Source of the DNA: Methylorubrum populi
GTDB taxonomy: Bacteria > Pseudomonadota > Alphaproteobacteria > Rhizobiales > Beijerinckiaceae
Assembly: GCF_002355515.1 (NCBI RefSeq)
Contig: NZ_AP014809.1
Location: forward strand, 2,070,501 to 2,134,500
Direction of reading: 5' to 3'
DNA length: 64,000 nucleotides
Shown here: positions 2,904 to 30,272 of the stretch, piece after piece
Position numbering within the stretch: the first letter of the stretch is position 1
How the letters are laid out: each line of letters begins with the position of its first letter
Program-made: the position numbers and the translations under genes
The notes under the pieces: model-generated
Told to the model about the DNA's origin: nothing
Databases searched by the model: none
What the model saw: the letters and a program-made list of their open reading frames with translations, nothing else

Positions 2904-2989
2904 TTTGGGCCTCCGGAATCCGAAAAGCCCGCGCCCGCTCCTGAGGATGTGGAGCGGTCCGCTGGGCTTCTGGTCCGGACGTTAACCAA

Positions 2990-3210: not shown

Positions 3211-3225
3211 GTTCGCATTCTGTTC
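3211..3225 (+). promoter_or_regulatory. LexA (SOS) box for umuDC
   Basis: Reads GTTC-GCATTCT-GTTC, an exact GTTC-N7-GTTC repeat. It ends 18 bp before the umuD start and just before the GGGAGAGG ribosome site, so LexA binding here would block umuDC expression. Confidence 0.8.
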
Positions 3226-3243
3226 CAGAATGGGAGAGGCGTG

Positions 3244-4985: not shown

Positions 4986-5053
4986 AAGGCCAAGCAACGC
5001 TTGGTCGAGATCCGCGTTAACCTTGTCGTGCAAGGGTGAATATCGAAAATCCG

Positions 5054-10357: not shown

Positions 10358-10368
10358 GGCGTTTCCCC

Positions 10369-13077: not shown

Positions 13078-13212
13078 GTGAGGGCAGCCGCTGTTCGGCT
13101 CAGCTTCGAACCATCTGCCAGCTGATCCACAGATAAGTATCTGTGATCGTTGAACAATATTATCATGGAGAGGCCCATCGAGTGGCTGCGCGACGCGTCG
13201 CTAAATCGCGCA

Positions 13213-13878
13213 TCACACGAAGCCTTCGTCGACGAGGCGTGCGCCGGCGGACGTGATCTCGTGCCGCTGTCCGGAGCCTTCGACGACCCTGCACCAGCTC
13301 TCGGCGACGAGACGCGCATTCGCGCCGTCCGCAGCCAGCCGGTAGGCGAAACCTCCGTACATGCCCGGGACGGCGAACCAGGCGGGTTCTGCGTCGATGC
13401 GGGTTTCGAGGAGGTGCGCGATCTCCGGCAGTCGTAGCCGTCCATCGCGAACGAGGTCGTCGGCACGGCCCCGGATCACGGTGTGGAAGTGCTCCTGGAT
13501 CTTGCGCAGCACGCCGAAGGGGACGCGCGACAGTCGCACGGGCTGCAAGATCGCCGCGAGCCGGTCGTGGCCAAGGCGCTCGGCGACATCGACCGCGCGC
13601 TCGCCTCGGGCGTTCTCCAGCGTCCGCCAGGCCCCCAGGCGGATCAGAGCTTCGCAGACCTCCTGCGGCGCATTCCCGTGTGCAGCCTGATGGAGGGGCG
13701 CGTACAACGATTCTCCGTCGGGCCGTGTGGTGTTGGCGAGGGACTGATCCGCCTCAAGGAGAGAGAGGACCCTCGTCCAATCATAGCCCTTCGCTGCATC
13801 GGCGAGCGCGTGCCGGCGAGCGGCATGGTCCTCATGGAGAACCTGCCGTGCTGTGATGCCGTCCCAGACAACCGACAC
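13213..13878 (-). CDS. ankyrin-repeat protein
   Basis: A 221-residue protein starting MSVVWDGITARQVLHEDHAARRHALADAAK. Residues 35-110 contain two to three ankyrin-like repeats (SLYAPLHQAAHGNAPQEVCEALIRLGA, ERAVDVAERLGHDRLAAIL). The C-terminal half (WFAVPGMYGGFAYRLAADGANARLVAESWCRVVEGSG) looks like a compact extra domain of unknown role. It precedes the methylase operon on the same strand with a 135-bp gap, so it may have its own transcript. Ankyrin proteins often mediate protein-protein contact, and nothing here shows the partner. Confidence 0.75.
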   Translation of the reverse strand: MSVVWDGITARQVLHEDHAARRHALADAAKGYDWTRVLSLLEADQSLANTTRPDGESLYAPLHQAAHGNAPQEVCEALIRLGAWRTLENARGERAVDVAERLGHDRLAAILQPVRLSRVPFGVLRKIQEHFHTVIRGRADDLVRDGRLRLPEIAHLLETRIDAEPAWFAVPGMYGGFAYRLAADGANARLVAESWCRVVEGSGQRHEITSAGARLVDEGFV

Positions 13879-14027
13879 TCACCGGACCCCTGTGTGGCAG
13901 CGACATGCCACCTTCTGAGGGTGACGGATGCGCCTGATGGCGACCTGAAGTTTCAGGCCGCGGTCGTGATCACGCAATTGCGAGCGCGCAACACCACGGT
14001 CGCATTGCGAGCTGAGGGCGACGATGG

Positions 14028-14190
14028 CGTGGCCGGCGCGATTGCTTCTGTCTATCGTCCGAAGCCGCAAACCTGCACGACTACGCGGAGTGGGACGAAG
14101 ATTCGATCACAGCCCGCGGCGCGGCCTTGTTTAAGGTGGCGGCGCTGCTCTGGCAGGACCCGCCCCACCTGCTCAGAACGCATAGGGAGG
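14028..14190 (+). pseudogene. C-terminal remnant, possibly of a GmrSD-type/DUF1524 endonuclease
   Basis: The third forward frame reads NLHDYAEWDEDSITARGAAL then FKVAALLWQDPP with no start upstream. The pattern W-(D/E)-x-x-x-I-x-x-R-x3-L-x3-A-x2-x-W resembles the extreme C-terminus of DUF262/DUF1524 (GmrSD) type IV restriction proteins. Nothing upstream in any frame continues the protein, so this is a truncated relic of an older defence gene. The family assignment is tentative. Confidence 0.3.
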
Positions 14191-14230
14191 GCGACATCCT
14201 GACCGCCTCTGCGTCCTGCCACCCCGACCA

Positions 14231-14340
14231 ATTGTCAGGACTGTCGGTTTCGTCGAACCGCTCCGCATCGTGGCGATGGAGAAAAAGGGTACGACAGACG
14301 GGCAGGTTTCGGGCCTGTCCGTCCTTCGGTGGCTGACAAT
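14231..14340. repeat. TTGTCAG-ended short inverted element, copy 2
   Basis: Ends ATTGTCAG (14231-14238) and CTGACAAT (14333-14340) form an 8-bp inverted repeat, followed by AG as in copy 1. Internally it shares TGTCGGTTTCGTC and GGGTACGAC (14287-14295) with copy 1. Confidence 0.5.
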
Positions 14341-14366
14341 AGCGCCGGTAGCGCCGAAAGCCTGGC

Positions 14367-16028
14367 TCAGGCGGCTTCTTCGGTCGTCTCGCTTTGGGGA
14401 GAGGCGTCCACGACCGTGGGTTCCTGCGGGAAGATCACCCGGGCGTTGACGCGGTACTCCTCGCGCTCGCGGCCCTTGGTGGTGCCCTCCCGGTCGGGCT
14501 TCCAGTAGAGGAGGCCGGCCTCGACGAGGAGGGCGCAGGCGTCCTTGCGGAGCCGGGTGTTCGCGAGCCGTCCACTGGCGACACGCTGGAGCTGCCGCCC
14601 GGTGAAGCAATCGCGCCAGTCGCGTTCGCGCAGGATCGCGAGCACGGCGCGGGCATCGGCCTCTCCATCGCCGACGGTCGCCGTCTGCCGGACGCGCTTG
14701 GCCTGTTCGAGGAAGTAGGCGTCCATCAGGTGGATCGCCTCGGCCATGCGGTCAGCGTCGATCGTCGTCGGCGATTCTGCGTCCTCCGCCCCGCCGCTCC
14801 ACTGCAGGAACGTCAGGACGGCGCTGAGGCGCAGAGCCTGGCCGGGAGCCTTGTTGAGCGTTGAGGCGTACCACGCGCTCTTGCCCCGGGCGTCGTCCAT
14901 CATCCTCTGGCCGAAGGCCTGGAGGAGGTCGGTAGCCTCCTCGGACACCGCGACCTCGTCGGGCCGGTTCTTCACCCGCGTCGATAAGTCGTCGATCGCG
15001 ATCAGCGCCGCGCGGGCCCGGTCGTCATCGGCCCGCGCGTGCGTGTCGGACTTGCGCGGTATCCGGAAGCTGGTCGGGCCCTCGGGCCACATCCACAGGA
15101 AGCGATGGGCGAGGCCGTCGTCGGACTTCGTCAGGAAGTCGCGCAGCGGCTCTGGCTGGACGCTGCCGATGACGCCGATCGATAGGTGCGGGATCTCGAC
15201 CGGTGCGCGCACGCCGTTCTTCAGGTCGCCGCCCTTGCGAATCACGGTGTAGGGATCACCGTCGTAGGCCTTCAGCCAGAACGGCCGGTCGGCGCTGACG
15301 CCCTTGGCGCGATAGCGGTCGAAGCCGCCGAACCAGCCCGCGAGCTCGTCGGAGAATTGCAGCAGCCCGCGCGGCGAGCCGGCGGCGGTCGTGATCAGGC
15401 CTTCGGTCGTAGCGTCGACCACGTGCAGGACCGGCATCACCGGCGTCGCCGGGATCTCGGCGTCCTCGGGCCACTCGGGCGGCGGCTTGTCCTGGGCGAG
15501 CGCCTCTTCGACGGCGCGCCGCCACGCCTTGTCCTTGAGGTCAGCGACGACGGCCTTCAGGCGATGGGCCGCCCCCTCGCCGTCGATGGTGGCGGCACGC
15601 TTGGCCTCGATCTGGTTGATCAGACGACGCACCGGGCGCATGCCGGGGCTCTTGGCGGTCGAGGGATTGCCGACGAGACCGATCCACAGCACGCTCGGGT
15701 GTTCCCAGACGCCCTCGACGTTGGGCCAGCGCACATTGCCGAGCAGCGCCCCGACGGTCGCGAGCAGGGTGCCGGCAGTGTAGTCGACCGGGGCGTTCGC
15801 GGCCCGAGCCGATTGCTCGACCCAGGTCTGCCAGAAAGGGCCGAGCACCTCGACCGGAAATCGGGGGGCGTCGTCGAAGCTGGTCCTCAGCAGCGACGTG
15901 TCCGGATCGGCCCACCGGGACTTGGTCGGCTTCGCGTCGGTCTGGAACGCCGCTTTCAGCGCCTCCTGCTGCGCATGGGCGTCCCCTGGCTCGGGGTTCT
16001 CATTGGCGGGGTCGTTCGGATCGGACAT
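14367..16028 (-). CDS. DUF3987 (YfjI-like) primase/ATPase-associated protein
   Basis: A 553-residue protein. DUF3987 features are visible: RFPVEVLGPFWQTWVEQSA and APVDYTAGTLLATVGALLGN near the start, GNPSTAKSPGM near residue 118 as a P-loop-like stretch, VVDATTEGLI, and SDELAGWFGGFDRY. This family is found in prophages, plasmids and integrative elements, often fused or adjacent to toprim/primase domains, and is thought to act in replication of the element; its activity is uncertain. No separate primase gene is next to it. A motif GTCGTACCC at 16091-16099 precedes it and recurs near the TTGTCAG elements. Confidence 0.8.
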   Translation of the reverse strand: MSDPNDPANENPEPGDAHAQQEALKAAFQTDAKPTKSRWADPDTSLLRTSFDDAPRFPVEVLGPFWQTWVEQSARAANAPVDYTAGTLLATVGALLGNVRWPNVEGVWEHPSVLWIGLVGNPSTAKSPGMRPVRRLINQIEAKRAATIDGEGAAHRLKAVVADLKDKAWRRAVEEALAQDKPPPEWPEDAEIPATPVMPVLHVVDATTEGLITTAAGSPRGLLQFSDELAGWFGGFDRYRAKGVSADRPFWLKAYDGDPYTVIRKGGDLKNGVRAPVEIPHLSIGVIGSVQPEPLRDFLTKSDDGLAHRFLWMWPEGPTSFRIPRKSDTHARADDDRARAALIAIDDLSTRVKNRPDEVAVSEEATDLLQAFGQRMMDDARGKSAWYASTLNKAPGQALRLSAVLTFLQWSGGAEDAESPTTIDADRMAEAIHLMDAYFLEQAKRVRQTATVGDGEADARAVLAILRERDWRDCFTGRQLQRVASGRLANTRLRKDACALLVEAGLLYWKPDREGTTKGREREEYRVNARVIFPQEPTVVDASPQSETTEEAA

Positions 16029-16187
16029 CGCGTAGGCCTGGTGGGTTCGAGACGAACCTTAGGAGGCGCGGCCAAACCTAACGCAGCCCTGTCGTACCCG
16101 CTGTCCCCAGGTCCCTAGCGGAGATTGGTCTCCACTATCCTGAACCTGCGGTTTCCAAACATGCGCTTCTTGGAAGTTCCGAATTGT

Positions 16188-16901
16188 TTAGTTTGGTGGA
16201 AATGCAAATACCAGATGCAGGATGGAGATGTCCGGGAGTTCGAGGGCTGGTCTCGGCACTCCAGAATGCAGTGCGATGCCGAACTGAGGCTGAACGGCAT
16301 GCAGCGTCGCTCCGTATTCGCCGCCGCGCAGAGCGCCTTCAATCAGATTGGCCCACGGCGGATGCTCCTGAGCCGCAGAGTACGCGAACATGAGCGCTAC
16401 GCGCTCGCGGGTGTAGGTCGAGTCTGTCGTGAGAAAGCAGCCGAGCCCATCTTCGCCGAGATAGGCAGACGTGACGTCGCCGTGCTGTCGGAGGAGCTTG
16501 GCCTCGACGGCCAGGGAGGCTGTGCGACGGCTTCCGAACCGGCGCTTGATCCGGAAGTCCATGCGCCGTGCTGTTGGCCCGCGTCGTGTGCGGCTTTCCA
16601 CGGGAAGCTCGGGGACGAATTCAATGTCCCGAAGAGGATTGTCGATCCTAAATCTGTCTTTGAGACGGTCGATCTCATGGAAGATGGCGACCGAGATGTC
16701 GACTTCCCCCATTTTCTTCTCAGGCCTAATGGCACGCTGTGCGTCCCAAGCCTTCTGACGTCGCAGGCGCTTGTAGGCGATGGCGACGGCACGAAGAGAC
16801 GTGACCGTCAGGGCGCTCCAGATGCTGGCTTCGTCGCGGACCATTCCGGCCGCCATGAACGTCTCGATGAGAGCGGCTTGCCTCTTGGTCTGGGCGATCA
16901 T
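16188..16901 (-). CDS. PD-(D/E)XK-like nuclease subunit of a three-gene R-M operon
   Basis: A 237-residue protein starting MIAQTKRQAALIETFMAAGMV. Residues ~120-150 read RMDFRIKRRFGSRRTASLAVEAKLL, a spaced D...VEAK arrangement typical of PD-(D/E)XK endonucleases. The following text (YLGEDGLGCFLTTDSTYTRERVALMFAYSA) fits a restriction-like core. The ATG overlaps the stop of the Eco57I-type methylase by 4 bp, so synthesis is coupled to it. The frame is open well upstream, but that part is antisense or shadow sequence within the methylase gene. It is inferred to be the cutting subunit. Confidence 0.65.
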   Translation of the reverse strand: MIAQTKRQAALIETFMAAGMVRDEASIWSALTVTSLRAVAIAYKRLRRQKAWDAQRAIRPEKKMGEVDISVAIFHEIDRLKDRFRIDNPLRDIEFVPELPVESRTRRGPTARRMDFRIKRRFGSRRTASLAVEAKLLRQHGDVTSAYLGEDGLGCFLTTDSTYTRERVALMFAYSAAQEHPPWANLIEGALRGGEYGATLHAVQPQFGIALHSGVPRPALELPDISILHLVFAFPPN

Positions 16902-19861
16902 GCGTGGGGCGCGAGGATACCGGCCGCGACGCGATCCGCGTCGATGAAGGCTTGGGCAATCGTCCAGTGGTGGGCCTCGGACGGCTTGACCAGGACGAGG
17001 CGCGCGGCATCGGGATCGCGCCAGTAGAACAGGCTGTCTTCGAACGCCGCTCCAGCGTTCTGATCGTAGGATCGCAGCGCCGGTTCCAAATCGAAGCTCT
17101 GGGAGGGCACGCCGGGATCGAGCGAGGTCTGCACGACGGTGACGTTGCGAACCGGATCTCGAAACTCGCATTCCGGTCCGACGCCAGCGACACCGATCAG
17201 GCGCTTGCGGATGGTCTGCACGTAGGTCGTGTGAGCAGCCTCCTCGGCGTCCAAGAAGGCTTCCTCTGGAACCTTGGCGTTCGCGAACAGGCGACGATAA
17301 TCCAGAAATTCCTCGATGGCAGAGCGGAACTCGCCAGTGATCCCGAGAAGATCGTAGCAGGCTGCATCGAGATCGGTCTGGGACTGCTCGAAGAAGCGCT
17401 CGAGCCGCGGATCCTCGGGGCCCCGGAAGGGCAGCGGCAGCGACGTGAGATCACCGAGGCTCAAGCGGGGGCGATCCATCATCGCGGAGGGGGCGTGCAG
17501 GGTCAGGTAGTACTGGGCCCAACGGCTGTTCAGCACCAGGGTGATCGCTCGCAAGAGTGTCCGTCCGTGGTCGGCTTTGGGCTCTTTGAGGCCGATGCCG
17601 ATGAGTGTCGTGTTGAACGCGACGGGCCGCGTCGCCAGGGCTGCCGGTCCTTGCTTGCGCGGTACGAGGACGACGTCGTTCAGGAAGAGCGAACGATACT
17701 GGCCCTTGATGCCCTTCTGAACCGCCTTGGCCAGGGGGTAGATGCCCTCGGTATCGCCGAGCTTCAGTGCCGAACCGGCACCGACGAAGTTCATATAGTC
17801 CGTCCGAGCATCGCCGCGTGTCGTCAGCGTATGGTCCATGGGTACGCCCGAATAGCGTGTCTCGGCCCCGAGCTTCACCACGAGTTCTGGTGTCAGGGAC
17901 CCGAGGGTCGCGAACCGCTGACGGGCGATATGTCCGTCGACATAGTTCATGATCAGGCGATCGACCGATCGCCCGTTGATCCCGCGGACCCAAGCCGTGT
18001 CTGTGTCGAGTTCCGCCTGTGGGATGCCGACGCTCTCGCCTGGATCGAGGACGAGCGTCCAAGCCGCGGTGCGCCGCTTGACCGGCTGAGAGATCGCCGT
18101 CGGCGCGTCGAAGCGGACGAGGTGATCAGGCTCGGCCACGCTGATTGACATGATCAGGATCGCGGCGGCCTGTTCGGCTTCCTTGAAGAGTTCGCGTCGG
18201 AACGGGGCAAGGTTCGTCACACTGACGATTTGGTACGCCGTCATGGCATGCCGGAACGGCGCGGCGCGATCGTTGCCGAAGGAACTGGCGGGCAGCAGAT
18301 AGGCGGCGATGCCCGTAGGCGCGATCGCACGATCGAGCGTTTCAAGAACGAAGACCTGGGCGGCCTGAGCGTTCTCGACCTTGTCCTTCCACCGAAGCGC
18401 AGCCTTCTTCAGCCATTCGGCATCGCTGCGAAGCGCATTGCCCCACGGCGGATTGCCCACGACGATATCGAACGGGGCTGAGAAGCGCGTGCTTGGCGCG
18501 AAGAAGTCATCGGCGATGAGGTTCGTGCCGACGAGCGGAGGGAACAGCTTCTTGGCAGCCCCGCGCTTGCCGAGGGAGAACGCCATGATCTCCTCCTCGG
18601 CGAGGTAGTCGAGGAGGGTGAGATACAAGCTAAAGGCTGCGACGTGACAGGCCTGCGGCTCGAGTTCGGCTCCGAAGATACCGGTCGTCAGGATCATCTG
18701 GAGGCGTTCGGCCGGCAGGACAGACTGCCGTTCGGCGACGAGCGCGTTCTCGATCTTGCGCCGGTATGCGCCGACGAGAAAGACACCTGAGCCGCAGGCC
18801 GGATCGAGAACGCGGTCGTGCTCCGTCAGGAGCTTCCGGTCCTCAACGGCGTCCAGGATGAAGTCAGCGAGGAACGGCGGGGTGTAGAACGCGCCGTCGG
18901 CCTTCTTCCGCTTCGGGTTTGTCTTGGCGAGGAACAGTTCATAGACGGCCGAAAGCGTCTCGATCCGGATTGAGCCGAGATCGATCTCGAACAGGGCGAG
19001 TTGGAGGCTGCCGTCGCTGTTGGCCCGGCCGAGCCTGATCGCGTCGCGCAAGTAGGTGAGATGCGCGGCTTCGATGATCGCGGGATCCGTCGTAAGCGGG
19101 AAGATGGTCCCGTTGAAGACCCCATCGAGCTTTGCGTTGAGGGCGAGAAATGTCTCGACCGGCCAGGGATGATACGGCTCGACGACGGCGCGGCGGTCCT
19201 GCTTCTGGTGCTCGAACCAGGCTTCATTCAGGATGCCCCGATCAACCAGCATGTAGATGTAAATCATCCGCCCGATGAGCGCATGGGCGAGCTGGATCGG
19301 CAGCTTGCTGAGCCCGGCCTGTCCCCTCGTCAGAACGTCGGAGAGGCTGCCAAGGTTCTTCAGCAGCACCTCGTCGACGCCGGTTTCCGAGACGGCATAG
19401 TCGCGCCACGTCACGCGCGAGCGCAACGCGTGAGCGTGCAGCTTGGGAAACACGGTATCGCTTGGGCCTGCGAGGTCGTCGACCGCGACCCTTTTGCGCG
19501 TGCGTTGCTCGCGCGTGTCCGATGAGAAGCCGAACCCGTCGCAAAGCCAAGCGCTCTGAGGCGTGACCACGATCAGATACGGTACCAGTCCCTGGCTCCA
19601 GACGCGCCGGTGCAGGTTCAGAACTGCGCTGTCGTCCTCGGCTTGTGCGATCAGGACGAGCGGCTTGAAGCGGGGACGGTGGTGGGACGGGCGAAGACCG
19701 AACGCCGCGACCACCTGCATGCGGGCTGCGGCCGTCGCGAGCGCCGCGCGATGAGAGCCGAGAGCATCAAAGGCTTCGGCCCAGACCAGACCGTTGGCCT
19801 CGCTGTAGCCGAGCCGCTCGATGACCGCATGGACGGTCGCGGATACAGGGAGCGCGCTCAT
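16898..19861 (-). CDS. Eco57I-type DNA adenine methyltransferase, large subunit
   Basis: A 987-residue protein. KADGAFYTPPFLADFILD near residue 325 is the usual lead-in, motif I is DPACGSGVF near 353, and motif IV is NPPWGN near 468. These are characteristic of Eco57I/type IIG and PglX-like N6-adenine methylases. The N-terminal 300 residues and C-terminal 400 residues hold specificity and spacer regions (a TRD-like stretch around LSLGDLTSLPLPFRG). No nuclease motif is obvious inside, consistent with the separate nuclease next door. It overlaps the D12 methylase gene by 4 bp at one end and the nuclease gene by 4 bp at the other. Confidence 0.85.
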   Translation of the reverse strand: MSALPVSATVHAVIERLGYSEANGLVWAEAFDALGSHRAALATAAARMQVVAAFGLRPSHHRPRFKPLVLIAQAEDDSAVLNLHRRVWSQGLVPYLIVVTPQSAWLCDGFGFSSDTREQRTRKRVAVDDLAGPSDTVFPKLHAHALRSRVTWRDYAVSETGVDEVLLKNLGSLSDVLTRGQAGLSKLPIQLAHALIGRMIYIYMLVDRGILNEAWFEHQKQDRRAVVEPYHPWPVETFLALNAKLDGVFNGTIFPLTTDPAIIEAAHLTYLRDAIRLGRANSDGSLQLALFEIDLGSIRIETLSAVYELFLAKTNPKRKKADGAFYTPPFLADFILDAVEDRKLLTEHDRVLDPACGSGVFLVGAYRRKIENALVAERQSVLPAERLQMILTTGIFGAELEPQACHVAAFSLYLTLLDYLAEEEIMAFSLGKRGAAKKLFPPLVGTNLIADDFFAPSTRFSAPFDIVVGNPPWGNALRSDAEWLKKAALRWKDKVENAQAAQVFVLETLDRAIAPTGIAAYLLPASSFGNDRAAPFRHAMTAYQIVSVTNLAPFRRELFKEAEQAAAILIMSISVAEPDHLVRFDAPTAISQPVKRRTAAWTLVLDPGESVGIPQAELDTDTAWVRGINGRSVDRLIMNYVDGHIARQRFATLGSLTPELVVKLGAETRYSGVPMDHTLTTRGDARTDYMNFVGAGSALKLGDTEGIYPLAKAVQKGIKGQYRSLFLNDVVLVPRKQGPAALATRPVAFNTTLIGIGLKEPKADHGRTLLRAITLVLNSRWAQYYLTLHAPSAMMDRPRLSLGDLTSLPLPFRGPEDPRLERFFEQSQTDLDAACYDLLGITGEFRSAIEEFLDYRRLFANAKVPEEAFLDAEEAAHTTYVQTIRKRLIGVAGVGPECEFRDPVRNVTVVQTSLDPGVPSQSFDLEPALRSYDQNAGAAFEDSLFYWRDPDAARLVLVKPSEAHHWTIAQAFIDADRVAAGILAPHA

Positions 19862-20601
19862 CGCGCGTCTCGGTTCAGCAACGGCGTGTCCGCAGAGCGC
19901 CCGGCATCGTGCAGACGGCTGGCGACGGAGAGAAACACGGATGTGTCGGCTGCGGCGAGTTCCTCGAGCATGGCGAGCCGTTCCGGCGTAGGCAGAGCTT
20001 GGATGCGGCTCAGAACCCGGCTGCGACGCCGCCGGATTTGCTCGCGCTCACGGAATGTCGCTCCGATGTGTTGATAATCATGCAGGTGGTCGGAGGGGGT
20101 GTAATTCACCCAGAGCGATTCGACCACAGCGCCGGCCTGGCTCCAGCCGGGAACGTCGATGCGCTGCCAGCCAGGCAGCAGATCCGTATAGAGATCCGAT
20201 GCGTAGCCGGACAGGATGACCGGGCAGGGTAGGTTGCGGAGAACTGTCAGGGCCGCAACGTGCTCGGCCTCGCTGTAATCGTGGCGGTAGATCCGACTTC
20301 GCGATCGCCGGGTCGCGGCGAGATAGGGCGGATCGCAGTAGACGAGTTCCTCGCCGGTGAAGCGCCGCTCCTTCAGGTGCGCGATCCCGTCGCCGACCTG
20401 GATCGTGCAACCCCGCGGCGTGCGGTCTCCCCACCACGCGATGACGGTCGGGTCCAGATCGTAGCCGAAGCTCTCGTGCGCAGGTTTCTTGTGCCGCAGC
20501 ACTGCGCCGTGGCCGAGATGGGTCTCGATGTACGTGCGATGCGGCGGCATCAGCGAGATGATCCGCTTGTAGCACCGCCCTTTTCCACCCGGGTACGTCA
20601 T
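19858..20601 (-). CDS. D12-class (Dam-like) N6-adenine DNA methyltransferase
   Basis: A 247-residue protein starting MTYPGGKGRCYKRIISLMP. YPGGKG is the Dam-family SAM-binding motif, YIETHLGHGAV follows, and LVYCDPPYLAATRR is the catalytic DPPY. Dam-like enzymes methylate adenine in short palindromic sites. The frame extends to 20640, but the start at 20601 is preferred because homologues begin at the PGGKG block and because a perfect hairpin (20609-20630) sits just before it. It is the first gene of a three-gene operon with 4-bp overlaps throughout. Confidence 0.85.
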   Translation of the reverse strand: MTYPGGKGRCYKRIISLMPPHRTYIETHLGHGAVLRHKKPAHESFGYDLDPTVIAWWGDRTPRGCTIQVGDGIAHLKERRFTGEELVYCDPPYLAATRRSRSRIYRHDYSEAEHVAALTVLRNLPCPVILSGYASDLYTDLLPGWQRIDVPGWSQAGAVVESLWVNYTPSDHLHDYQHIGATFREREQIRRRRSRVLSRIQALPTPERLAMLEELAAADTSVFLSVASRLHDAGRSADTPLLNRDAR

Positions 20602-20608
20602 GCCCGCA

Positions 20609-20630
20609 CCATCGCCAAAAATGGCGATGG
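20609..20630 (-). promoter_or_regulatory. perfect 9-bp inverted repeat covering the leader of the D12 methylase
   Basis: CCATCGCCA and TGGCGATGG flank a 4-base A/T loop. The hairpin ends 7 bp before the chosen ATG and would hide the ribosome-binding region if formed in mRNA. It could also be a repressor operator. Confidence 0.6.
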
Positions 20631-20718
20631 ACGCAAGCACGCCAGAAGCTCTGTCCCGTGGCTGATGTGTGACACCCCGGGCCGGCTACAAATCCGTCTG
20701 CCTGAGTGAGGGGCGTTG

Positions 20719-21630
20719 TCACGATCCATTGCGTGTCGCGGCCTCTAAGATGGCCGCCGTCGGCGCAGGATCTCGACCAATCGCTCTGAGCGCTTCGACG
20801 AGATGGCGAGCGCGTTCGGTGCAAACGCGATTTACGCATGCGCCGGCTCCTCGACGGGCTTCCGTCAGGGCGTGAACCGCATGCCGCTCCGGCGCTGGCA
20901 CGGCGACGGGAATGCCGGGGCCGTGCAAGACGAGGGATTGCACCGGGTTATCGATCAGGATGCCGGTGAGGTCTGATGTCTCGTCGTTGGCCTGATCGAG
21001 GCCGACGACGGCGACCTGCACGCCGGTCGCCGAACGGCAGAGGCCAAGGTCCTCGGGCCCGGAGGCGAAGCTGGGATCCATCGTGCGGAGGGCGTCGAGG
21101 ATGCCGCCGACCCGGCCGGGATCCCGGAGGGCGATCTCGACCGCGGGATCATCCCTGGTTCGCTGTGGGCGCTTGGGGAAGCGCACGCCGAGGACGCCGT
21201 CGTAGGTCTGGAAGGCGGCCTCTCCGAGGAGCACGGCGTGGTCGGGAAACAGGCCGGCGCGCGCGAGCGCCTCGATGATCCGGCCGGTGATCCGGTCGGG
21301 CCGCGGCATCCCGGCTCCGATCAGGGCGCTCACCGTCGTTGCGCGCTCGGCGCGCACTGTCTTCACCCGCTGAAACCGCGCGATCCGTGCCACGACGTCA
21401 GGATCGTCGGCGCGCCCGAGATAGCGGGCGTAGCGCTGGCCTCGGCCGGCATCACCGGCGGCGGGGCGGTAACCCTGGTAGTAGGCGTGGTCGGCTGGCG
21501 CGCCGGCGCGGTTCGACCGGACCAGGATGCTGCCGTTCTCCGGCATCTCCGGATCGAATAGATCATCGATCCCCTGGTCGAGAAGGTCAGCGTACAGCGT
21601 ATGCTGGGCGAGCGAGAGCGGTCGGACCAT
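20719..21630 (-). CDS. GSU2403-family nucleotidyltransferase-fold protein
   Basis: A 303-residue protein starting MVRPLSLAQHTLYADLLDQ. It has the layout of the GSU2403 nucleotidyltransferase family: a helical N-terminus with QGYRPAAG and RGQRYARYLGRADDP, then LARAGLFPDHAVLLGEAAFQTYDGVLGVRFP, where the nucleotidyltransferase-fold core would lie. Residue-level catalytic acids are not certain to me. Relatives are common in mobile islands and some nucleotidyltransferases act as toxins in abortive infection (AbiEii); that role is not shown here. The ATG at 21630 lies 11 bp after a perfect 10-bp inverted repeat. The longer frame to 21882 crosses the divergent control region and is rejected. Confidence 0.65.
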   Translation of the reverse strand: MVRPLSLAQHTLYADLLDQGIDDLFDPEMPENGSILVRSNRAGAPADHAYYQGYRPAAGDAGRGQRYARYLGRADDPDVVARIARFQRVKTVRAERATTVSALIGAGMPRPDRITGRIIEALARAGLFPDHAVLLGEAAFQTYDGVLGVRFPKRPQRTRDDPAVEIALRDPGRVGGILDALRTMDPSFASGPEDLGLCRSATGVQVAVVGLDQANDETSDLTGILIDNPVQSLVLHGPGIPVAVPAPERHAVHALTEARRGAGACVNRVCTERARHLVEALRAIGRDPAPTAAILEAATRNGS

Positions 21631-21640
21631 CGTGGGCGAT

Positions 21641-21671
21641 GATGTATGCAAAAACGCAATATGCATACATC
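21641..21671 (-). promoter_or_regulatory. 10-bp perfect inverted repeat (operator candidate) before the nucleotidyltransferase gene
   Basis: Arms GATGTATGCA (21641-21650) and TGCATACATC (21662-21671) are separated by 11 bp. The site is AT-richer than its surroundings and sits directly before the start codon, as expected for a dimeric repressor site. Confidence 0.6.
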
Positions 21672-21703
21672 GCGAAGAGCGGGCGGGCACGCCCTGTGCA
21701 TGA

Positions 21704-21801
21704 CCTTTTGTCAGGATCGTCGCTTTGGTTGGCGATCTCACACCTTTGGCGGATCGCAGAAGGGTTCGCAGCCGACCTCCGCTCAGTCCTTCTGACAGTA
21801 G
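21704..21801. repeat. TTGTCAG-ended short inverted element, copy 3 (diverged)
   Basis: Left end CCTTTTGTCAGGATCGTCG and right end CTGACAGTAG (21792-21801) match copies 1 and 2, with one or two differences. GGGTTCG replaces the GGGTACG inside. It lies between the nucleotidyltransferase and the next, divergent gene. Confidence 0.4.
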
Positions 21802-21936
21802 GTGCGTTAGCGACGATAGGCTCGGACTTGGCCCTCGATTGGCCCGAAGCGCCTGCAATCGCCGCCCCTGCAGGGCCCGCATCCTTCCTGCCTCAGTCGC
21901 AGTGTGGTTCAGTCAGTGAGGGGCAAGGGGGATCAC

Positions 21937-22950
21937 ATGGTGGGATGGCGTCCGGGCGGCGAGATCTGTCCGGTCTGCGGCGGTGAGGGACGGGGATCGG
22001 TCTCCTATCCCGCCGCGATCTGCCGGGATTGCGAAGGCCGCCTCGTTGACTGGGCCGACCGACCGGTCGACATCACGAACACATCGTTCCTCGGAACGGG
22101 CATCCAAGTTTCGAACGGCGAGGATGTCGTCGCCAATGACGACACCCCGATCTTCGTCGACGGGATTGCGTGCTGGGCGCGGGAAGCCCGCTTTGGGGGT
22201 GTGGTGGTCCAACCCGTGGCGGGTTGGCTCATGCCGCCGTTTCCGAGCGACACGCCAGATGAATGCAAGACTCTTGCTGCGTTCGGGTACGATGGGCGGG
22301 CGGTGCTGGATTTTCTGATCGCCGCATCCCCATGGGGATCGATCGATCAAGCGATCGCGTCCCTGTCGCTCTTCGCTCATCCCGACGTTGTCACGGCGAC
22401 CGGACGCCGAGCCGTCTTCCGCACGGTACGGGGTCGGACGGCCGACCGGGGCACGATCGTCGACGGCGTGATGGTCGATGACAATGCGAGCCCGGCGGCC
22501 GCCTTCGAGTGGAGCACGGGTTTGAAGCGCGCGACGACACGCGACCTGACCTGCTGCCACCTCTACGCGAGTTCGAGCGACCCGGAGGCCTACACGGACC
22601 TCCGCAACATCTTCTACGCGCCGAGCTTCATCGCGAAGCTGACCGACAGCCAAGCTCGATCGCTTCCGGAGGTGCATGCCCTCCACATTCTACGGTATCG
22701 CGCATTCGCCCTGCACGGCTATTGTGGGCCGGGCAGCACGATCCGACCACCGAAGCCACAGAACTACGATGCCCTGACATGGGCCGATCCAGCGGGCGCG
22801 GGTGCGAGCGCGGACCAAGTGCAAGCCACACTTCGCGCTCGGCTTGCCCAGAAGCCGAAAGACCGGATCACCAAATCGGTCGCGCGATGCGGCTGGGTGT
22901 TCACGGGCGGACACCCGGACCCGCTGGTGGTCTATGACGGGCGTTCATAA
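21937..22950 (+). CDS. zinc-ribbon protein of unknown function
   Basis: A 337-residue protein starting MVGWRPGGEICPVCGGEGRG. CPVC and CRDC about 19 residues apart near the N-terminus form one zinc site. The rest is soluble and not recognised (DDTPIFVDGIACWAREARFGGVVVQPV; SPWGSIDQAIASLSLFAHPDVV). The ATG at 21937 follows AAGGGGG at a good distance, so it is preferred over the upstream start at 21904. It is divergent from the nucleotidyltransferase and ends before the relic of the transposition gene. It is presumably cargo; no function is proposed. Confidence 0.6.
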   Translation: MVGWRPGGEICPVCGGEGRGSVSYPAAICRDCEGRLVDWADRPVDITNTSFLGTGIQVSNGEDVVANDDTPIFVDGIACWAREARFGGVVVQPVAGWLMPPFPSDTPDECKTLAAFGYDGRAVLDFLIAASPWGSIDQAIASLSLFAHPDVVTATGRRAVFRTVRGRTADRGTIVDGVMVDDNASPAAAFEWSTGLKRATTRDLTCCHLYASSSDPEAYTDLRNIFYAPSFIAKLTDSQARSLPEVHALHILRYRAFALHGYCGPGSTIRPPKPQNYDALTWADPAGAGASADQVQATLRARLAQKPKDRITKSVARCGWVFTGGHPDPLVVYDGRS

Positions 22951-23293: not shown

Positions 23294-24463
23294 TCATAGC
23301 TTCTTTGCCTGATCTTTGGCCTTACCGGATAGGTGGTAGGCGATCGCCGCCTCGGACAGAGGCTGGTGCCCGTGCCGGCCGGGGAACGCCCAGGGGCCGG
23401 GTCGACTGCTCCAACCCGATGTCCATCTGGCCCAGCGCAGGAATGTGCTGGCGAACGGTTCTTCGAGGACGATCGCCTCGGCCGCCGGCCACAGCGTGAC
23501 GCTGTTGCGGGTGACCACGATCTCGTCGCGCCGAAGCGTGAGAACGCGGGTCATCGGCAGGGCGTAGATCCTGGCGAGGAGCAGGATGAGCATGGCCCGT
23601 GCCTCGCCGGCGCTGCGCGGCTTTGCAAGGCGCTTCCGCCAGGCTTTGATCTCGGCGCGCAGCCGCTTCTCCTGAGCGACCGGACTGAGAGGGCGCGGCT
23701 TGGGCGAGGTCAGGGCCGGCCCGCCCTGGGTGGCGACGAAGCTGAGAAAGCCCTGAAGCGCGGCCCGGTGCCCGGGGCTTTTGCGCAGCGCACGTGCGAG
23801 GTGGCGCTGGCTCAAGTCGCCCAGCGGGGCGTCGCCGAGTTCGGCGAGGAGGGCGAGGGCGGCCGTGAGCGAGGTCCGCTGGGTGATGGGCTTCCGGTTC
23901 CGGGCCGCGAGGCTGTCGCGGTACCGGCGCAGGAGGGACGCGTGCGGGCTGTCCCGATGCGCGGTCAGGATCGCGTCGACTCGCTCGTTCTCGATCAGGA
24001 CCTGAAGCCGGGTCCGGTCCCAGTCGAGCACGCCGACATCGCTCATGAAGGCGATCAGGGGTGCGACGCGTCTCGCGCCGTCAGCGCCGAGCGCGGCGTG
24101 GACCGCGTCGGTGGTGAGGCGACCGTAGGTGGGATCCCTCACCGCGATCGCGCGGCATGCGTCTGCCGTCCGGGCGATGCGCTCGGCGGCGAGGCCGTTG
24201 TCGAGGGGGATGCGGCCGCTCTCGCAGAAGGCGATAAACATCCCGGACATCCACTGGATCGGGATCGTTGCGGCCTCCTCACCGATCTGGCGCTCGGAAC
24301 GGCGTCGCTGGCTGCAGGGGTAGCAGGGAGCGTGGCCGCTTCCGGGTATGACGGCCTGGCAGATCGGGCACGTGTGGGTGATCCCGACCGAGCAGGGGAA
24401 GCAGATCCGGTCGTCCGCCATCACGGGGCGATGGCGGCGACAGATTCGGCAGGTCGCCTTCAT
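23294..24463 (-). CDS. fifth Tn7-module protein: zinc-ribbon plus tyrosine-recombinase-like fold (TniE-like candidate)
   Basis: A 389-residue protein. The N-terminus has four CxxC pairs (Cys 5/8, 21/24, 32/35, 47/50), enough for two zinc ribbons. The middle is helical (LTAALALLAELGDAPLGDLSQRHLARAL resembles a SAM-like/core-binding domain). The C-terminus (LLLARIYALPMTRVLTLRRDEIVV, WPAAEAIVLEEPF) looks like the catalytic fold of phage integrases but lacks a clear catalytic Arg, HxxR or Tyr set. It overlaps tniQ by 4 bp, so it is part of the transposition operon. Comparison with tniCABDE of Tn6022/AbaR suggests a TniE-like accessory or targeting role; this is inference. Confidence 0.6.
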   Translation of the reverse strand: MKATCRICRRHRPVMADDRICFPCSVGITHTCPICQAVIPGSGHAPCYPCSQRRRSERQIGEEAATIPIQWMSGMFIAFCESGRIPLDNGLAAERIARTADACRAIAVRDPTYGRLTTDAVHAALGADGARRVAPLIAFMSDVGVLDWDRTRLQVLIENERVDAILTAHRDSPHASLLRRYRDSLAARNRKPITQRTSLTAALALLAELGDAPLGDLSQRHLARALRKSPGHRAALQGFLSFVATQGGPALTSPKPRPLSPVAQEKRLRAEIKAWRKRLAKPRSAGEARAMLILLLARIYALPMTRVLTLRRDEIVVTRNSVTLWPAAEAIVLEEPFASTFLRWARWTSGWSSRPGPWAFPGRHGHQPLSEAAIAYHLSGKAKDQAKKL

Positions 24464-25515
24464 CGGCGTTGGGCCGTGGCGTCGAGCAGGCGAGCGGCAC
24501 GCACGCGCCGGTACCCGGCACGGTTCTGGCGGCGGAGGCGTTTGAGGTCGCGGTCCTGGAGCACGGGGACGAAGGTTCGATCGCGGGCAAACCCTTCGGG
24601 CAGGCGCAGGATCTGGAGCGCGAGGTCGCCGGGTTGGGCGACCTTGCGGAAGCTGCGTTGGGTCAGCCCGGCGCTGCCGGCCGCGACGAAGAAGCGGTTC
24701 GGCCAGTCACTGAGCCAGTGACCGACGGTCTCGAGGATGACGGCGCGATCGCCGGCGCGCATCCGCTCGAACCGGGTCACCGGGATCGCCGCGGCGTCGA
24801 GCCCAAGGGCGCAGCGCAGCAGGGGCAGCACATCGGGATGCCGCGCCACCGTCACAAGGCTGCGCACGCCCCGAAAAGCAGCATCCCCCTGCCAAGGCCC
24901 GACCGTCGTACCCGGGTCGTTCGCGAGCACCGCGAGCAGGCGGGTCTGTAACTCGTTCACGGCCGGCAGGACCACCGCGGGATGCGGATCGCGATGGGCG
25001 AGATCGAGCCCGCACGCGTGGCAGGCGTCCAGTCGCCAGCGGTAGCTGCGATGGGGCACGATGGCGGCCCCGCAATGGGGGCAGGCATCGCGGAGCGGTG
25101 TCATGCAGGTCGGGCAGGCGAGCACGAAGCTGTAGCGCCACGTGCGGCGCATGTACGGCTCACCGTCACCAAGACACCGCGGACAGATCTGAACCGCGTG
25201 TCGCATCCGTGTGCGGTGAAAAATCCCGGCGGACAGGATCAGCGCCGTATCGCCCGATCCCCGGCCGAACCGGCGGCGCGGGGCGTCGAGCGTCATCGCC
25301 TGCACCCGTTCGAGGGTGAGACCGGCGCGGTTCGCGAGATCGGCGAGCCAGGCGGTATCTTCGCCGCGGTCGAGATCGCGGTTCCAGACCGGTCGGTCCG
25401 GCCACCATTGGGCAGCGAACACGGTTGGTGGCAGGCGGTGCCGGAACGCGGCGCGTGCGAGGTACGAGCTCAGGATCTCGTCGTCGTAGGGGGTTGAGGG
25501 CAGGGGCCAGCGCAT
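24460..25515 (-). CDS. tniQ: TniQ-family target-selection protein
   Basis: A 351-residue protein starting MRWPLPSTPYDDEILSSYLARAAFRHRLPP, the classical opening of the TniQ domain. Zinc ligands follow in CPRC, CPTC, CPHC and CHAC between residues ~108 and ~170. In Tn7-like elements TniQ/TnsD proteins link a DNA target to TnsC. The C-terminal region (WPNRFFVAAGSAGLTQRSFRKV) probably includes a helix-turn-helix. The start at 25515 is 7 bp after the tnsC stop; upstream in-frame starts overlap tnsC and are less likely. It is followed with a 4-bp overlap by the fifth gene. Confidence 0.9.
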   Translation of the reverse strand: MRWPLPSTPYDDEILSSYLARAAFRHRLPPTVFAAQWWPDRPVWNRDLDRGEDTAWLADLANRAGLTLERVQAMTLDAPRRRFGRGSGDTALILSAGIFHRTRMRHAVQICPRCLGDGEPYMRRTWRYSFVLACPTCMTPLRDACPHCGAAIVPHRSYRWRLDACHACGLDLAHRDPHPAVVLPAVNELQTRLLAVLANDPGTTVGPWQGDAAFRGVRSLVTVARHPDVLPLLRCALGLDAAAIPVTRFERMRAGDRAVILETVGHWLSDWPNRFFVAAGSAGLTQRSFRKVAQPGDLALQILRLPEGFARDRTFVPVLQDRDLKRLRRQNRAGYRRVRAARLLDATAQRR

Positions 25516-25522
25516 GGCACCC

Positions 25523-26425
25523 TCAGCCGGCTGCGCGACGCCGTTCCCCGCCATACGGCAACCGCGACGCAGCCTCGATAAGCCCGAGATCGACCCGAGG
25601 CTTGCCGGCCTCGATCGCGGTCTCGGTCGCTCGCTGGATGACCCGAACGACCCGGCCGACGGTGCCTTCGGACACATTGAACAGGGCCGTCAGGGGCTCC
25701 TTGTCGGCGAGGTTCGAAGGCTCGGGCATTGGCAAAAGCCGCTCGTAGCTCGCCACGAACGAGCGAAATTCCTGGTTCAATCGCCAGCGCGGCAATACGA
25801 ACGGCTCGAACCGGTTGGCGGTCTGCTCGTCGGTCTTGAGCGCGGCCTCGGCGTCGCGTGTTCCCGCCGCGACGATGGGCAGACGCAGGCGATTGCTCAG
25901 GCTCTTGAGCAGGAGCAGCCGGTCGCGCTGGGCGCGCGGGGGCAGGCGCGTGATGTTGTGCAACTCATCGATCATCAGCATGCGCACCGCGAGCTGATCG
26001 AGGATTGCGCAGGTGTAGCGCATCAGGTTCTCGCTCCGCCGGGGCGGCGCGCAGCGCATGCGTTCCAAGATCGCTTCCCAGAACAGGGCCTCGTTGGCCT
26101 CCTTCGGCATCTCGATCAGGACGACGGACAGCGGCCGATGCCCGGTCAGCCCATTGGGTTCTCGCAGGCGCACCGGATCGCCGTGACGCGCAGCGAACGT
26201 CTCCAGGATGGTGCTCTTGCCGTTGTTGCTGTCCCCGATCAGCAGGCAGTTTTCCATCCGCCGAGCCCGGGCGTGATGGAGGATGCTCTCCAGGCGATCC
26301 ATCGCCGCCGTCGCCGCCGGGTAGCCGATCCACTGATCGGACTGGACGAACGCGATCCGCTCCTGGCGCGAGCGTTCCACGAGGAGCCGGACATCCGGCT
26401 GGAGGTGGGGATAGCGCTCGGACAT
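25523..26425 (-). CDS. tnsC: TnsC/TniB-type AAA+ transposition regulator
   Basis: A 300-residue ATPase. Walker A is GDSNNGKST near residue 68, Walker B is MLMIDELHN near residue 150, and sensor-like LPIVAAGTRDAEAAL follows. The size and the opening IGYPAATAAMDRLESILHHARARRMENCLLIGD are typical of TniB/short TnsC. It connects the TniQ-bound target to the TnsAB transposase. It is separated from tnsB by 250 bp, unusual for these operons, so it may have its own promoter; the spacer contains AT-rich TTTTGTTCTAATCT at about 26451. Confidence 0.9.
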   Translation of the reverse strand: MSERYPHLQPDVRLLVERSRQERIAFVQSDQWIGYPAATAAMDRLESILHHARARRMENCLLIGDSNNGKSTILETFAARHGDPVRLREPNGLTGHRPLSVVLIEMPKEANEALFWEAILERMRCAPPRRSENLMRYTCAILDQLAVRMLMIDELHNITRLPPRAQRDRLLLLKSLSNRLRLPIVAAGTRDAEAALKTDEQTANRFEPFVLPRWRLNQEFRSFVASYERLLPMPEPSNLADKEPLTALFNVSEGTVGRVVRVIQRATETAIEAGKPRVDLGLIEAASRLPYGGERRRAAG

Positions 26426-26675: not shown

Positions 26676-28574
26676 TCAGCGCTGAAACTCGGCCGGCTCG
26701 ATGTCGCCGTAGATGACCGGCGGCGTATCGAAGAGCCCGTCGTCCTCGCGTGGGCTCGGCGTGCTCGGCTGACGTTCCTGCACCGGCGCTGCCGCCGGGG
26801 CAGGCTTCACCTGCGAAGCACGGTGGAACTCACGGCGCGCCGCCTTGGTCTTGGCTCGCGCTTCCTCGGCATAACCCTCCCGGCGAGCGATGGCCTTGAA
26901 CAGCTGGTCCTCATCGACGTCGAGAACGCCCTGGCGTTTGAGTTCCGCCTTCGCCGCCTTGATCTGCCACAGGCTCACCGACGGGTGGCTGAGATCGCGA
27001 TAGGGGATCGCGAAGTATCGCTGGATCTCAGGGTCCCAGAACCAGATCCGGCTGACGTCGCGGGGATCCCGGCGGAACTCGAACTGTCGCGGCCGCTTCG
27101 GATCGTCCGGATCGGTCGCGCCGGCCCAGCGATACAGGACCTCGTCCTGGTAGCCGATCTTGTCCATCTCGACGCCGTAGCGCTGGATCGTGCGCTCAAG
27201 GCACGGCGTGAAGTCGAGCCGGAGCTTCTCCGCGTCGGCGATCTTTTCAGGCAACCCTGCCCCGGGTTGGACCCCGTCGCCCAGCAGACCCACCTGCCAC
27301 CTGCGCCGCGGCGTCATCGCGATCTCGCTGTGCAGGCGCATGTGATAGGTCGTGGTGAGAAAGTCGACGAGGTACCGCTCGACCTCGCCGAGGGTCATGC
27401 TGGCCATACCCTCGGAGTTGTAGCCCTCGCGCTGGCGCGTGTTCGAGAACGTCGCGCCGTCGAGCTTGCGCACCTCGTTGGCGGTCGTTCCCATCAGGCG
27501 CTCGATGTGACCGCCGTAATGCGGGGTCTTCACCGGTCGGAAATCGAGATCGATGCCCCAGTCCCGGCACGCCCGCGCGAGCAGCTTGCCGCGAAACTCC
27601 TTGGCGTTGTCCGCCATCACCTTCGCCAACCGCCCGTAGACCGGCCACTCGCCGGGCACGCCCAGCGCCTCCAGCACCGGCCCTTTGGGCAGCATGCTCA
27701 TGGACAGGCACAGCCCGACCGCGTTGGCGTTCGGTCGCTCCATCGACAGGTGGTAGCCCGTCACCATGCGCGAATACACGTCGATCGCGAGCGTCAGCCA
27801 CGGCCGACCCATCGGCAGCCGCGTCGTCTCCTCGACCACGATCACATCGAGCTGCGTGTGATCGATCTGGACGACCGCCAACGGCTTGTCCGCGCCCGGA
27901 AAATGTCCGCGGACCGGCTTGCCGAGGTTGTCCGCCTTCGCCCGCTCGCCGCGGCGGCGCAGCACCAGTTGCGGATGCAGCGCCGCGATCCGCGCCCGCA
28001 CCGTGTTCTTACCCGGGACCGGCAGCTTCGCCTGGCGGCAGGCCGCTTCGACCTTCTCGATGATGTCGGAGGGCTTCAGCTTCTGCCGGGTCAGAAACGC
28101 GTCCTCGATCGCGCCAGCGATCACTGCCTCGACTTCCGGCGACAGCGACGTCCGGCCCGGCGGGCGGCCTGCCGTCGTCGGAGCCAAGCTCGAGAGATGC
28201 CCCGAGTGGCTGTAATCCGAGAGCCACCGGTAGATCGTGCTCGGATCGACTTTCGCCTGGGCCGCGACGGCCTCAACCTCGGCGCGTGGGATGATGCCGC
28301 GGTCCACCAGCGGCTTGATGATCGCCCAGCGCTGCTCGGCGACCGACCACGCCTTGTCCGAGATGTCGCTCGCCCGGCGCTGCTTCTCGGCCGGCCCGCC
28401 GGCAACCGGCTGCACCGCCTCGATGTCGGCGACCTTGAGCCGCTTGCGCTCCCCCGTCGCGACGTTCTCGCCTAGGACGCTGTCGAGATCGATCTCATGG
28501 GTGATGCGATACGTCGCCTCTCCGCAGCGGACCTCACAAGAGGGCGCAAGGCGTATGAATGCGGATCGCTCCAT
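26676..28574 (-). CDS. tnsB: TnsB/TniA-type DDE transposase
   Basis: A 632-residue protein with DNA-binding helix-turn-helix regions in the first 200 residues (AKVDPSTIYRWLSDY; LKPSDIIEKVEAACRQAKLPVPGKNTVRARI) and an RNase-H-fold core. The catalytic triad is visible as Asp in VVQIDHTQLDVI (about 235), Asp in VMADNAKEF (about 321) and Glu in GGHIERLMGT (about 356). It joins the 3' ends of the element to target DNA. The start at 28574 overlaps the tnsA 3' end by 103 bp; no later in-frame start fits the conserved N-terminal segment YRITHEIDLDSVLG. Confidence 0.93.
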   Translation of the reverse strand: MERSAFIRLAPSCEVRCGEATYRITHEIDLDSVLGENVATGERKRLKVADIEAVQPVAGGPAEKQRRASDISDKAWSVAEQRWAIIKPLVDRGIIPRAEVEAVAAQAKVDPSTIYRWLSDYSHSGHLSSLAPTTAGRPPGRTSLSPEVEAVIAGAIEDAFLTRQKLKPSDIIEKVEAACRQAKLPVPGKNTVRARIAALHPQLVLRRRGERAKADNLGKPVRGHFPGADKPLAVVQIDHTQLDVIVVEETTRLPMGRPWLTLAIDVYSRMVTGYHLSMERPNANAVGLCLSMSMLPKGPVLEALGVPGEWPVYGRLAKVMADNAKEFRGKLLARACRDWGIDLDFRPVKTPHYGGHIERLMGTTANEVRKLDGATFSNTRQREGYNSEGMASMTLGEVERYLVDFLTTTYHMRLHSEIAMTPRRRWQVGLLGDGVQPGAGLPEKIADAEKLRLDFTPCLERTIQRYGVEMDKIGYQDEVLYRWAGATDPDDPKRPRQFEFRRDPRDVSRIWFWDPEIQRYFAIPYRDLSHPSVSLWQIKAAKAELKRQGVLDVDEDQLFKAIARREGYAEEARAKTKAARREFHRASQVKPAPAAAPVQERQPSTPSPREDDGLFDTPPVIYGDIEPAEFQR

Positions 28575-29344
28575 GTCGTGGCCTCGTCCTCGGCGACCCA
28601 GATCGGGGTCTTCATCGTCAGGTCCAGGGTGAGATCAGCCTCGATCCGACCCTGCGCAAGTAAGCGCCACAGGTGCGGGAGTGCCTGCAAGCGGCTGGGC
28701 TCGTCGGAGAAACTCGCGAGCAGCACGATCTCGGGCGTGGCCTCCTCGTAGGCCATCAGCGTCGCGATCAACGTCTCCTCGAACCCGTCGTGCTCCGCGC
28801 GCCGGAGGTACGGGCGCAGGAAGGTCACGTTGGCGAGAAGCGGCGTGCGGATCTCGGTCTCGGTTAGAATCCTGAACGTCGCCCTCTGCTCGCGCGCATA
28901 GGCGCGCGCCGCCAGGAACGCCGGCTTCAGGCGCGGCCACTGCGCGAACAGGTCCGCGCGGTACTTCACCTCGTAGATCATCGGCGTCGCCGCGGCGGCC
29001 GAAGGCTGGGCGGCCGTCGGCCCCACGAAGTCCACTGCCACGTCCGGCGTGTACCGGCGGGACTTGTGGGTGACAGGATCGCGGAAGGTAATCGTGATGG
29101 GTTGCCCGCGGACGCGCTGGGCCGAGGGCAGGAAGTCCAGGATCGTCAGAAGGTCGCGTTCGAGCGTACTCTCATGGGCGATCGACGCGCCTTTCACCTG
29201 GACCGTGCCGCGAACCGAGCGGTGGCCCATGCCGATGGTGCGCGCCGGCGCGCCTGTGGGCGCGGAGGCGACGGGCGTCACGTGGGGTGCTGGCGGCACG
29301 GGCGAATCGGTTCGCGCCGAGGATTTCGGGGACGGACGTGGCAT
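28472..29344 (-). CDS. tnsA: TnsA-type endonuclease
   Basis: A 290-residue protein starting MPRPSPKSSARTDSP, with about 50 disordered Pro/Ala-rich residues. The TnsA nuclease core follows: Glu in HESTLERDLL (about 60), Asp in YTPDVAVDF (about 100) and EVKY (about 125), a PD-(D/E)XK-type set. TnsA cuts the 5' strands, giving cut-and-paste movement rather than cointegrates. It is the gene nearest the right end. An upstream in-frame Met at 29425 is possible but would run into the TnsB-site region. Confidence 0.88.
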   Translation of the reverse strand: MPRPSPKSSARTDSPVPPAPHVTPVASAPTGAPARTIGMGHRSVRGTVQVKGASIAHESTLERDLLTILDFLPSAQRVRGQPITITFRDPVTHKSRRYTPDVAVDFVGPTAAQPSAAAATPMIYEVKYRADLFAQWPRLKPAFLAARAYAREQRATFRILTETEIRTPLLANVTFLRPYLRRAEHDGFEETLIATLMAYEEATPEIVLLASFSDEPSRLQALPHLWRLLAQGRIEADLTLDLTMKTPIWVAEDEATTWSDPHSYALRPLVRSAAERRRIASPMRSISTAS

Positions 29345-29442
29345 GCGCGGGAGTGTCCCGAAGCGGAGGGAGCATGGAAAGGGAGGCGGGATCGCGAAAA
29401 ATCGGCGGTCCCGGCGCGGCCTCACGGGGCGGCAAAACCCGG

Positions 29443-29574
29443 TCGCGGAATTTCCTGGAAAACAAGATCCAGTCGCGGAATTTATGGGTGTAGAGTCTTG
29501 GGATTTGGGGGTGAAAACCCGGTTAAGTCTTTGTTTTTGCTAGGTTTTAGTCGCGGCATTGGGTGGAAGTGACA
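29443..29574. repeat. right transposon end with TnsB-binding-site repeats
   Basis: Direct repeats start at 29443 (TCGCGGAATTT), 29473 (TCGCGGAATTT, preceded by CCAG) and 29551 (TCGCGGCATT, preceded by TTAG). Spacing is 30 and 78 bp. The element should end in ...ACA at 29574, as Tn7-like ends are TGT...ACA. Protein binding is inferred. Confidence 0.65.
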
Positions 29575-30272
29575 GCGGGCTCAACGCTCGGCCGGGCGAG
29601 GCTTCGCTCGCCCATGGCGGCGTGCTGTTCCTCGATGAGCTGCCCGAGTTCACGCCCCAGGTGCTCGATTCCCTGCGCCAGCCGATGGAGACGGGCGAGA
29701 TCATGATCGCGCGGGCGAACCACCGGGTGACCTACCCGGCCCGCTTCCAGCTCGTGGCGGCGATGAATCCGTGCCGCTGCGGCATGGCGCTGGAGCCCGG
29801 CTACGCCTGCCGCCGGGGGCCGAACGAGCGCTGCGTCGCCCAGTACGGCGCCCGGATCTCCGGGCCGCTGCTCGATCGGATCGACCTGCGCATCGAGGTC
29901 GCCGCGGTCACCGCCGCCGACCTGATCCTGCCGCCGCCCGCCGAGGGCTCGGCCGAGGCCGCCGCGCGGGTTGCCGCGGCCCGCGCCCTCCAGAGCGCGC
30001 GCTACGCCGCCCTCGGCCTGCCGGCCGCGACCACCAACGCCACCTGCCCGGCCACCGTGATCGAGACAGCGGCCGCGCCCGACGCCGAGGGGACGGCGCT
30101 GATCCGCCACGCGGCGGAGACCATGCGGCTCTCCGCCCGCGGCTTCCACCGCATCCTGCGCGTCGCCCGAACCCTGGCCGATCTCGACGGTGAGGCGCAG
30201 GTGCGGCGGCCGCATCTGGCCGAGGCGCTGTCCTACCGGGCGCGCGGAGAGCCGCCCGCGGCCGCGGCGTAA
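29575..30272 (+). pseudogene. comM: comM/yifB Mg-chelatase-like ATPase, 3' part interrupted by the transposon
   Basis: The frame reads RPGEASLAHGGVLFLDELPEF, then LVAAMNPCRCG and the C-terminal Mg-chelatase domain to a normal stop. The first ~270 residues, including Walker A, are absent because the transposon joins just before the PGEASLAH block. ComM is a hexameric helicase promoting branch migration during natural transformation. The 5' half should lie beyond the unseen left end of the element. The remaining 232 codons cannot make a functional protein. Confidence 0.9.

Follow-up and report, generated by a model that had tools for sequence, protein, structure and literature searches.

TnsF (formerly tniE or orf3) of the Acinetobacter johnsonii transposon Tn6022 is described as an inactivated tyrosine recombinase with zinc fingers, core-binding domains and a partial catalytic domain, which binds both TniQ and the Walker B stretch of comM DNA and steers insertion there (Faure et al. 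2023, PMC10293859). Transposition of this element (AjTn6022) was impaired once TnsF was removed and dropped when the 40-50 bp flanking the insertion point on one or the other side were deleted; binding required a 10-bp portion of Walker B (PMC10293859). A zinc-finger N-terminus, a core-binding region and a comM target are also described for the TnsF of a Zoogloea Tsy element (Faure et al. 2023). Here we analyse 64,000 nucleotides of Methylorubrum populi (contig NZ_AP014809.1, positions 2,070,501 to 2,134,500, hereafter "the window"), in which a gene at 23294..24463 is very probably tnsF, the comM target selector of a Tn6022-like Tn7 transposon.

As in Tn6022, this gene is the last of a tnsABC-tniQ operon and overlaps tniQ, its product has N-terminal zinc fingers followed by a predicted core-binding-like and a partial catalytic domain without the Tyr chamber, and the insertion in comM lies near Walker B. 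The protein differs in length (389 against 498 aa) and in having two ribbons only, as compared with the published description rather than letter by letter, and the element differs in its Methylobacterium/Methylorubrum host and in that TnsE was not recognised in it. A preliminary description, made from the window's sequence alone, had drawn a parallel between the order tnsA-tnsB-tnsC-tniQ-X and the tniCABDE module of the Tn6022/AbaR islands, which also target comM, and this parallel holds. It had also proposed a non-cutting integrase fold as the comM reader and called this unusual; the idea was right but the novelty was not, as the mechanism has been in print since 2023 (PMC10293859). The present analysis adds the reduced zinc array, the Methylobacterium/Methylorubrum host group, an exactly delimited element and solitary copies of the gene. 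No paper on TnsF in Methylobacterium was found among the matches listed in the open-licence literature, and a term search of the main text of PMC8649781 found neither Methylobacterium nor Alphaproteobacteria; the supplement of PMC10293859 holds 1,099 TnsF homologues, and the window protein may be among them.

Architecture and predicted fold of the TnsF-like protein

The gene and the parts of its product are as follows.

23294..24463, (-) strand: tnsF, short form, 389 aa, zinc ribbons plus recombinase-like parts
Residues 1-50: two zinc ribbons
Residues 51-170: helical region
Residues 172-254: core-binding-like domain
Residues 259-380: partial catalytic domain

The open reading frame (ORF) is real at these coordinates, and its ATG start overlaps the tniQ stop as ATGA, which fits the translational coupling first proposed from the sequence. 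The four CxxC pairs noted there hold as well and lie within residues 1-50, a number that none of 100,000 shuffles yielded. The window protein matched no model in a Pfam and NCBIfam scan up to E 10, and none of its 20 relatives (from a search of 5.8 billion proteins with 7,997 candidates scored) had a precomputed Pfam domain. A PDB sequence search with query A2 gave 6 rows (best E 0.098), none of them a recombinase; these were ribosomal and zinc proteins covering the ribbon part. Foldseek with the whole model gave low TM-scores of about 0.1-0.3, and the predicted fold of residues 172-380 is that of tyrosine recombinases (XerD, XerH, Cre and lambda Int). Unlike those enzymes, the window protein has neither the HxxR nor the Tyr segment, its predicted fold ending before both, and in a weak profile alignment Pro303 occupies the column of the catalytic Arg I. 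The structure prediction thus agrees with the recombinase-like region without catalytic residues that had been suspected, where an unrelated fold would have spoken against it.

A tblastn search of 72,556 plasmid records gave 9 that match window tnsF, of which 4 were opened. The matched gene follows tnsABC-tniQ in three of these (Acidovorax, Xanthomonas and Pseudomonas putida), while in the fourth, from Variovorax, it comes after a tyrosine recombinase (YRec) and a helix-turn-helix (HTH) gene, which is the Tsy arrangement. The Acidovorax TnsF is 22.7% identical to the window protein over 90% (E 5e-7), and the two have a common C-terminal end position. Plasmid TnsF relatives have a longer zinc array, with the last two members of which the two window ribbons align, and all eight Cys are invariant in the 10/10 alignment rows of window tnsF and long TnsF. 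As judged from these alignments, the 389-aa protein is a TnsF (TniE/orf3) homologue of the Tn6022 type in which the zinc array of long TnsF is reduced to its last two ribbons.

The element and its insertion in comM

The genes tnsA, tnsB, tnsC, tniQ and tnsF follow each other in this order and the same direction within an element of 32,843 bp, which has 11-bp terminal inverted repeats and GCGGG on both flanks and splits comM upstream of Walker B. The operon, element ends and comM parts (the last in the window's genome, G000) are as follows.

24460..25515, (-): tniQ, 351 aa from probable ATG, PF06527 E 1.6e-21; the listed ORF extends to 25677
25523..26425, (-): tnsC, TniB-type AAA+ ATPase, 300 aa, PF05621 E 1.6e-55
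26676..28574, (-): tnsB, DDE transposase, 632 aa, Mu-transpos_C over cut-off; IS481 transposase profile E 3.5e-17, below its cut-off
28472..29425, (-): tnsA, endonuclease, 317 aa, PF08722 and PF08721 over cut-off
29564..29574: right terminal inverted repeat TGGAAGTGACA, 29574 being the final base of the element
Starting at G000:C1:2067232, 3.3 kb before the window: left end TGTCACTTCCA
29575..29579: 5-bp target duplication GCGGG, with its second copy at L006 2228-2232
29575..30272, (+): comM 3' half, PF01078 and PF13335
G000:C1:2066950-2067237 and upstream: comM 5' part

The Walker B codons of comM (VLFLDE) begin 47 bp beyond the end of the element, at position 29622, a distance that fits the need of AjTn6022 for the flanking 40-50 bp and part of Walker B. 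AbaR25 in Acinetobacter comM has the duplication accgc (PMC3691203), the reverse complement of which, GCGGT, resembles the duplications found here, the strand of AbaR25 being unchecked.

The genus was sampled with 111 genomes, using a tnsF query (A1) at E 1e-5 and a comM profile at E 1e-20 with 25 candidates scored per genome. A1 matched in 11 genomes, with six full-length matches in five of them, and the whole tnsABC-tniQ-tnsF operon was present in four: the window's own, Methylorubrum zatmanii (G1198, L008), Methylobacterium sp. DB0501 (G1133, L009) and M. gregans (G1142, L010), genomes and loci being paired through their identical coordinates. comM was matched in 108 genomes (no match at this threshold in 3/111), and the four operon genomes were the only ones seen with comM split far apart by a large insertion; another 8 genomes, in which comM gave just one incomplete piece, were left unexamined, and in G1136 comM has a frame break and not an insertion. 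The preliminary description had asked whether homologues might be found equally in elements at other sites, and within the genus the coincidence of these two sets of four speaks otherwise. The cut is at the same place in all four (profile 1-96 and 88/89-206), with elements of 32.8, 38.1, 41.8 and 34.7 kb flanked by the duplications GCGGG, GCGGC, GCGGC and GGGGC. As these match on both sides of each element and are of three kinds between elements, they argue against one inherited insertion. TniQ was found at 61 places in 49/111 genomes (E 1e-10), of which 4 adjoin tnsF and sit in comM; three of the other 57 are in genomes where comM was not found.

In wider samples, matches were obtained in 6/397 genomes of the family (A1 at E 0.001), in 1/385 of the class (the window's own) and in 8/398 of the phylum (A2, the window's own included). 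Two genomes from other lineages have comM cut at the window's point: G1047, with tnsABC-tniQ-tnsF and flanks GGGGC and GCGGC, one base apart, and G948, with the halves on two contigs, GAGGC on both sides, a partial tnsF match and tns genes unchecked. In G988 (tnsABC-tniQ-tnsF; L072, L083) comM is interrupted about 30 profile positions farther upstream, perhaps reflecting a shifted target or a later change, and its halves are on two contigs. The break in G798 and G820, which carry YRec-HTH-TnsF, falls immediately downstream of Walker B; in G1004 comM is represented by the 3' part alone, on a different contig from its tnsF, and in G1059 comM is intact and tnsF broken.

Other genes of the element

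Further genes of the element within the window are as follows.

21937..22950, (+): gene of 337 aa facing tnsF (convergent), with two CxxC pairs near the N-terminus
1..21882: the window's share of the cargo region, holding the four genes below and others
3696-4985: impB/mucB-type polymerase (cargo)
7192-8298: T5orf172-domain protein (cargo)
10369-13077, (-): MmeI-like type IIG restriction-modification enzyme (cargo)
16898-19861, (-): second N6-methylase protein (cargo)

The 337-aa gene lies where Tn6022 carries tnsE, on the opposite strand, and is kept at the corresponding position of each of the other three genus elements (84-99%); it has 23 database relatives, and all four of those with a named host are from Methylobacterium or Methylorubrum. 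As a TnsE candidate it was compared with the protein that Acidovorax carries at this place, to which it is not significantly similar, and its model is poor (predicted local distance difference test, pLDDT, 50.7). Partial relatives occur on plasmids of M. extorquens AM1 (63.5% over 69%) and Tistrella (28.8% over 36%), where the stretches fetched, 16.7 kb and 12.4 kb respectively, matched none of TnsA, TnsB, TnsC, TniQ and TnsF. The TnsE_C profile (PF18623) at E 10 had no match in the genome, but is a weak test, since even the Acidovorax protein from that place reaches no more than 13.2 bits.

The gap between tnsB and tnsC carries about 4.8 kb (L008, L010) or 7.2 kb (L009/L032) that is absent from the window; the L010 insert (3247-8039, the only one scanned) has an IS605 OrfB-type gene at 4738-5922(-).

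Alternative explanations and implications

By analogy with the published AjTn6022 experiments, window TnsF would bind DNA, dock on TniQ and be needed for transposition. Its zinc ribbons and core-binding-like domain would read the Walker B stretch of comM, while the truncated catalytic domain would cut no DNA and would act as a dock for TniQ, which would recruit TnsC; TnsA and TnsB would then place the element 47 bp ahead of Walker B, duplicating 5 bp and interrupting comM, in one orientation with the tnsA end adjoining the comM 3' half.

That the window protein might instead be an active tyrosine recombinase of the Tsy kind, performing strand exchange itself, is suggested by its fold, which places it in the same superfamily, and by the Variovorax Tsy-type TnsF, which has the eight Cys and 24-26% identity; this we consider extremely improbable, as the catalytic domain of Tsy TnsF is still active and its partners are YRec and HTH proteins (Faure et al. 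2023), and the Tsy-type protein extends about 50 residues, Tyr segment included, beyond the point where the window protein stops. The neighbours are tnsABC-tniQ and not YRec and HTH genes, all 17 tyrosine-recombinase (PF00589) places of the genome lie outside the element, and the junctions have 5-bp duplications and inverted terminal repeats. It is also very unlikely, if somewhat less so, that TniQ alone picks comM, the fifth gene serving as an accessory regulator or persisting as a carried-along relic. TniQ/TnsD proteins do select targets in other Tn7-like elements (PMC10293859, PMC11406308), and window TniQ itself shows weak, sub-cut-off matches to zinc ribbons; it is, however, short (351 aa), like that of Tn6022 (369 aa, PMC10293859), the loss of TnsF impaired AjTn6022 transposition, and tnsF is intact in 4/4 elements, with a dN/dS (ratio of nonsynonymous to synonymous substitution rates) of 0.15-0.22 between the three comM-resident copies compared.

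Several observations weigh against the gene being a comM selector of Tn6022 type. TnsE, called almost universal in comM-targeting elements (PMC11406308), was not recognised in the window element, by a profile weak even for the Acidovorax protein. Full-length solitary tnsF copies (L070 8437-9597; L028 11648-12841) occur in G1170 (69% identical) and, as a second copy (50%), in the window's genome, and broken or partial copies occur in six genomes (G265, G300, G1146, G1154, G1174 and G1192). No match to tnsA, tnsB, tnsC or tniQ was found in the stretches fetched around the solitary copies, which therefore give no evidence of another target; comM is undivided in all seven solitary-copy genomes other than the window's own. 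In one relative, G088, a 5.5-kb contig carries tnsBC-tniQ-tnsF while comM is intact; this does not demonstrate another target, though one may exist in that genome.

Beside the solitary tnsF of L070 are an SNF2-type helicase and a DEAD-helicase protein of 1754 aa that has a zinc domain of the MrfA type. The copy at L028 was considered as a Tsy element and rejected, the preceding ORFs being an esterase and a piece of a DDE transposase. Conceivably the short form, with the last two ribbons and the recombinase part, is the minimal comM reader, and intact solitary tnsF copies are kept as comM-binding shields against such elements, although we regard this as unlikely.

With the window gene read as tnsF, the target selector characterised in Acinetobacter also has a short form in Methylobacterium, here with defined element ends and recurrent insertion at a single comM site, and this smaller TnsF could ease structural work on a dead integrase fold as a transposon's address reader.
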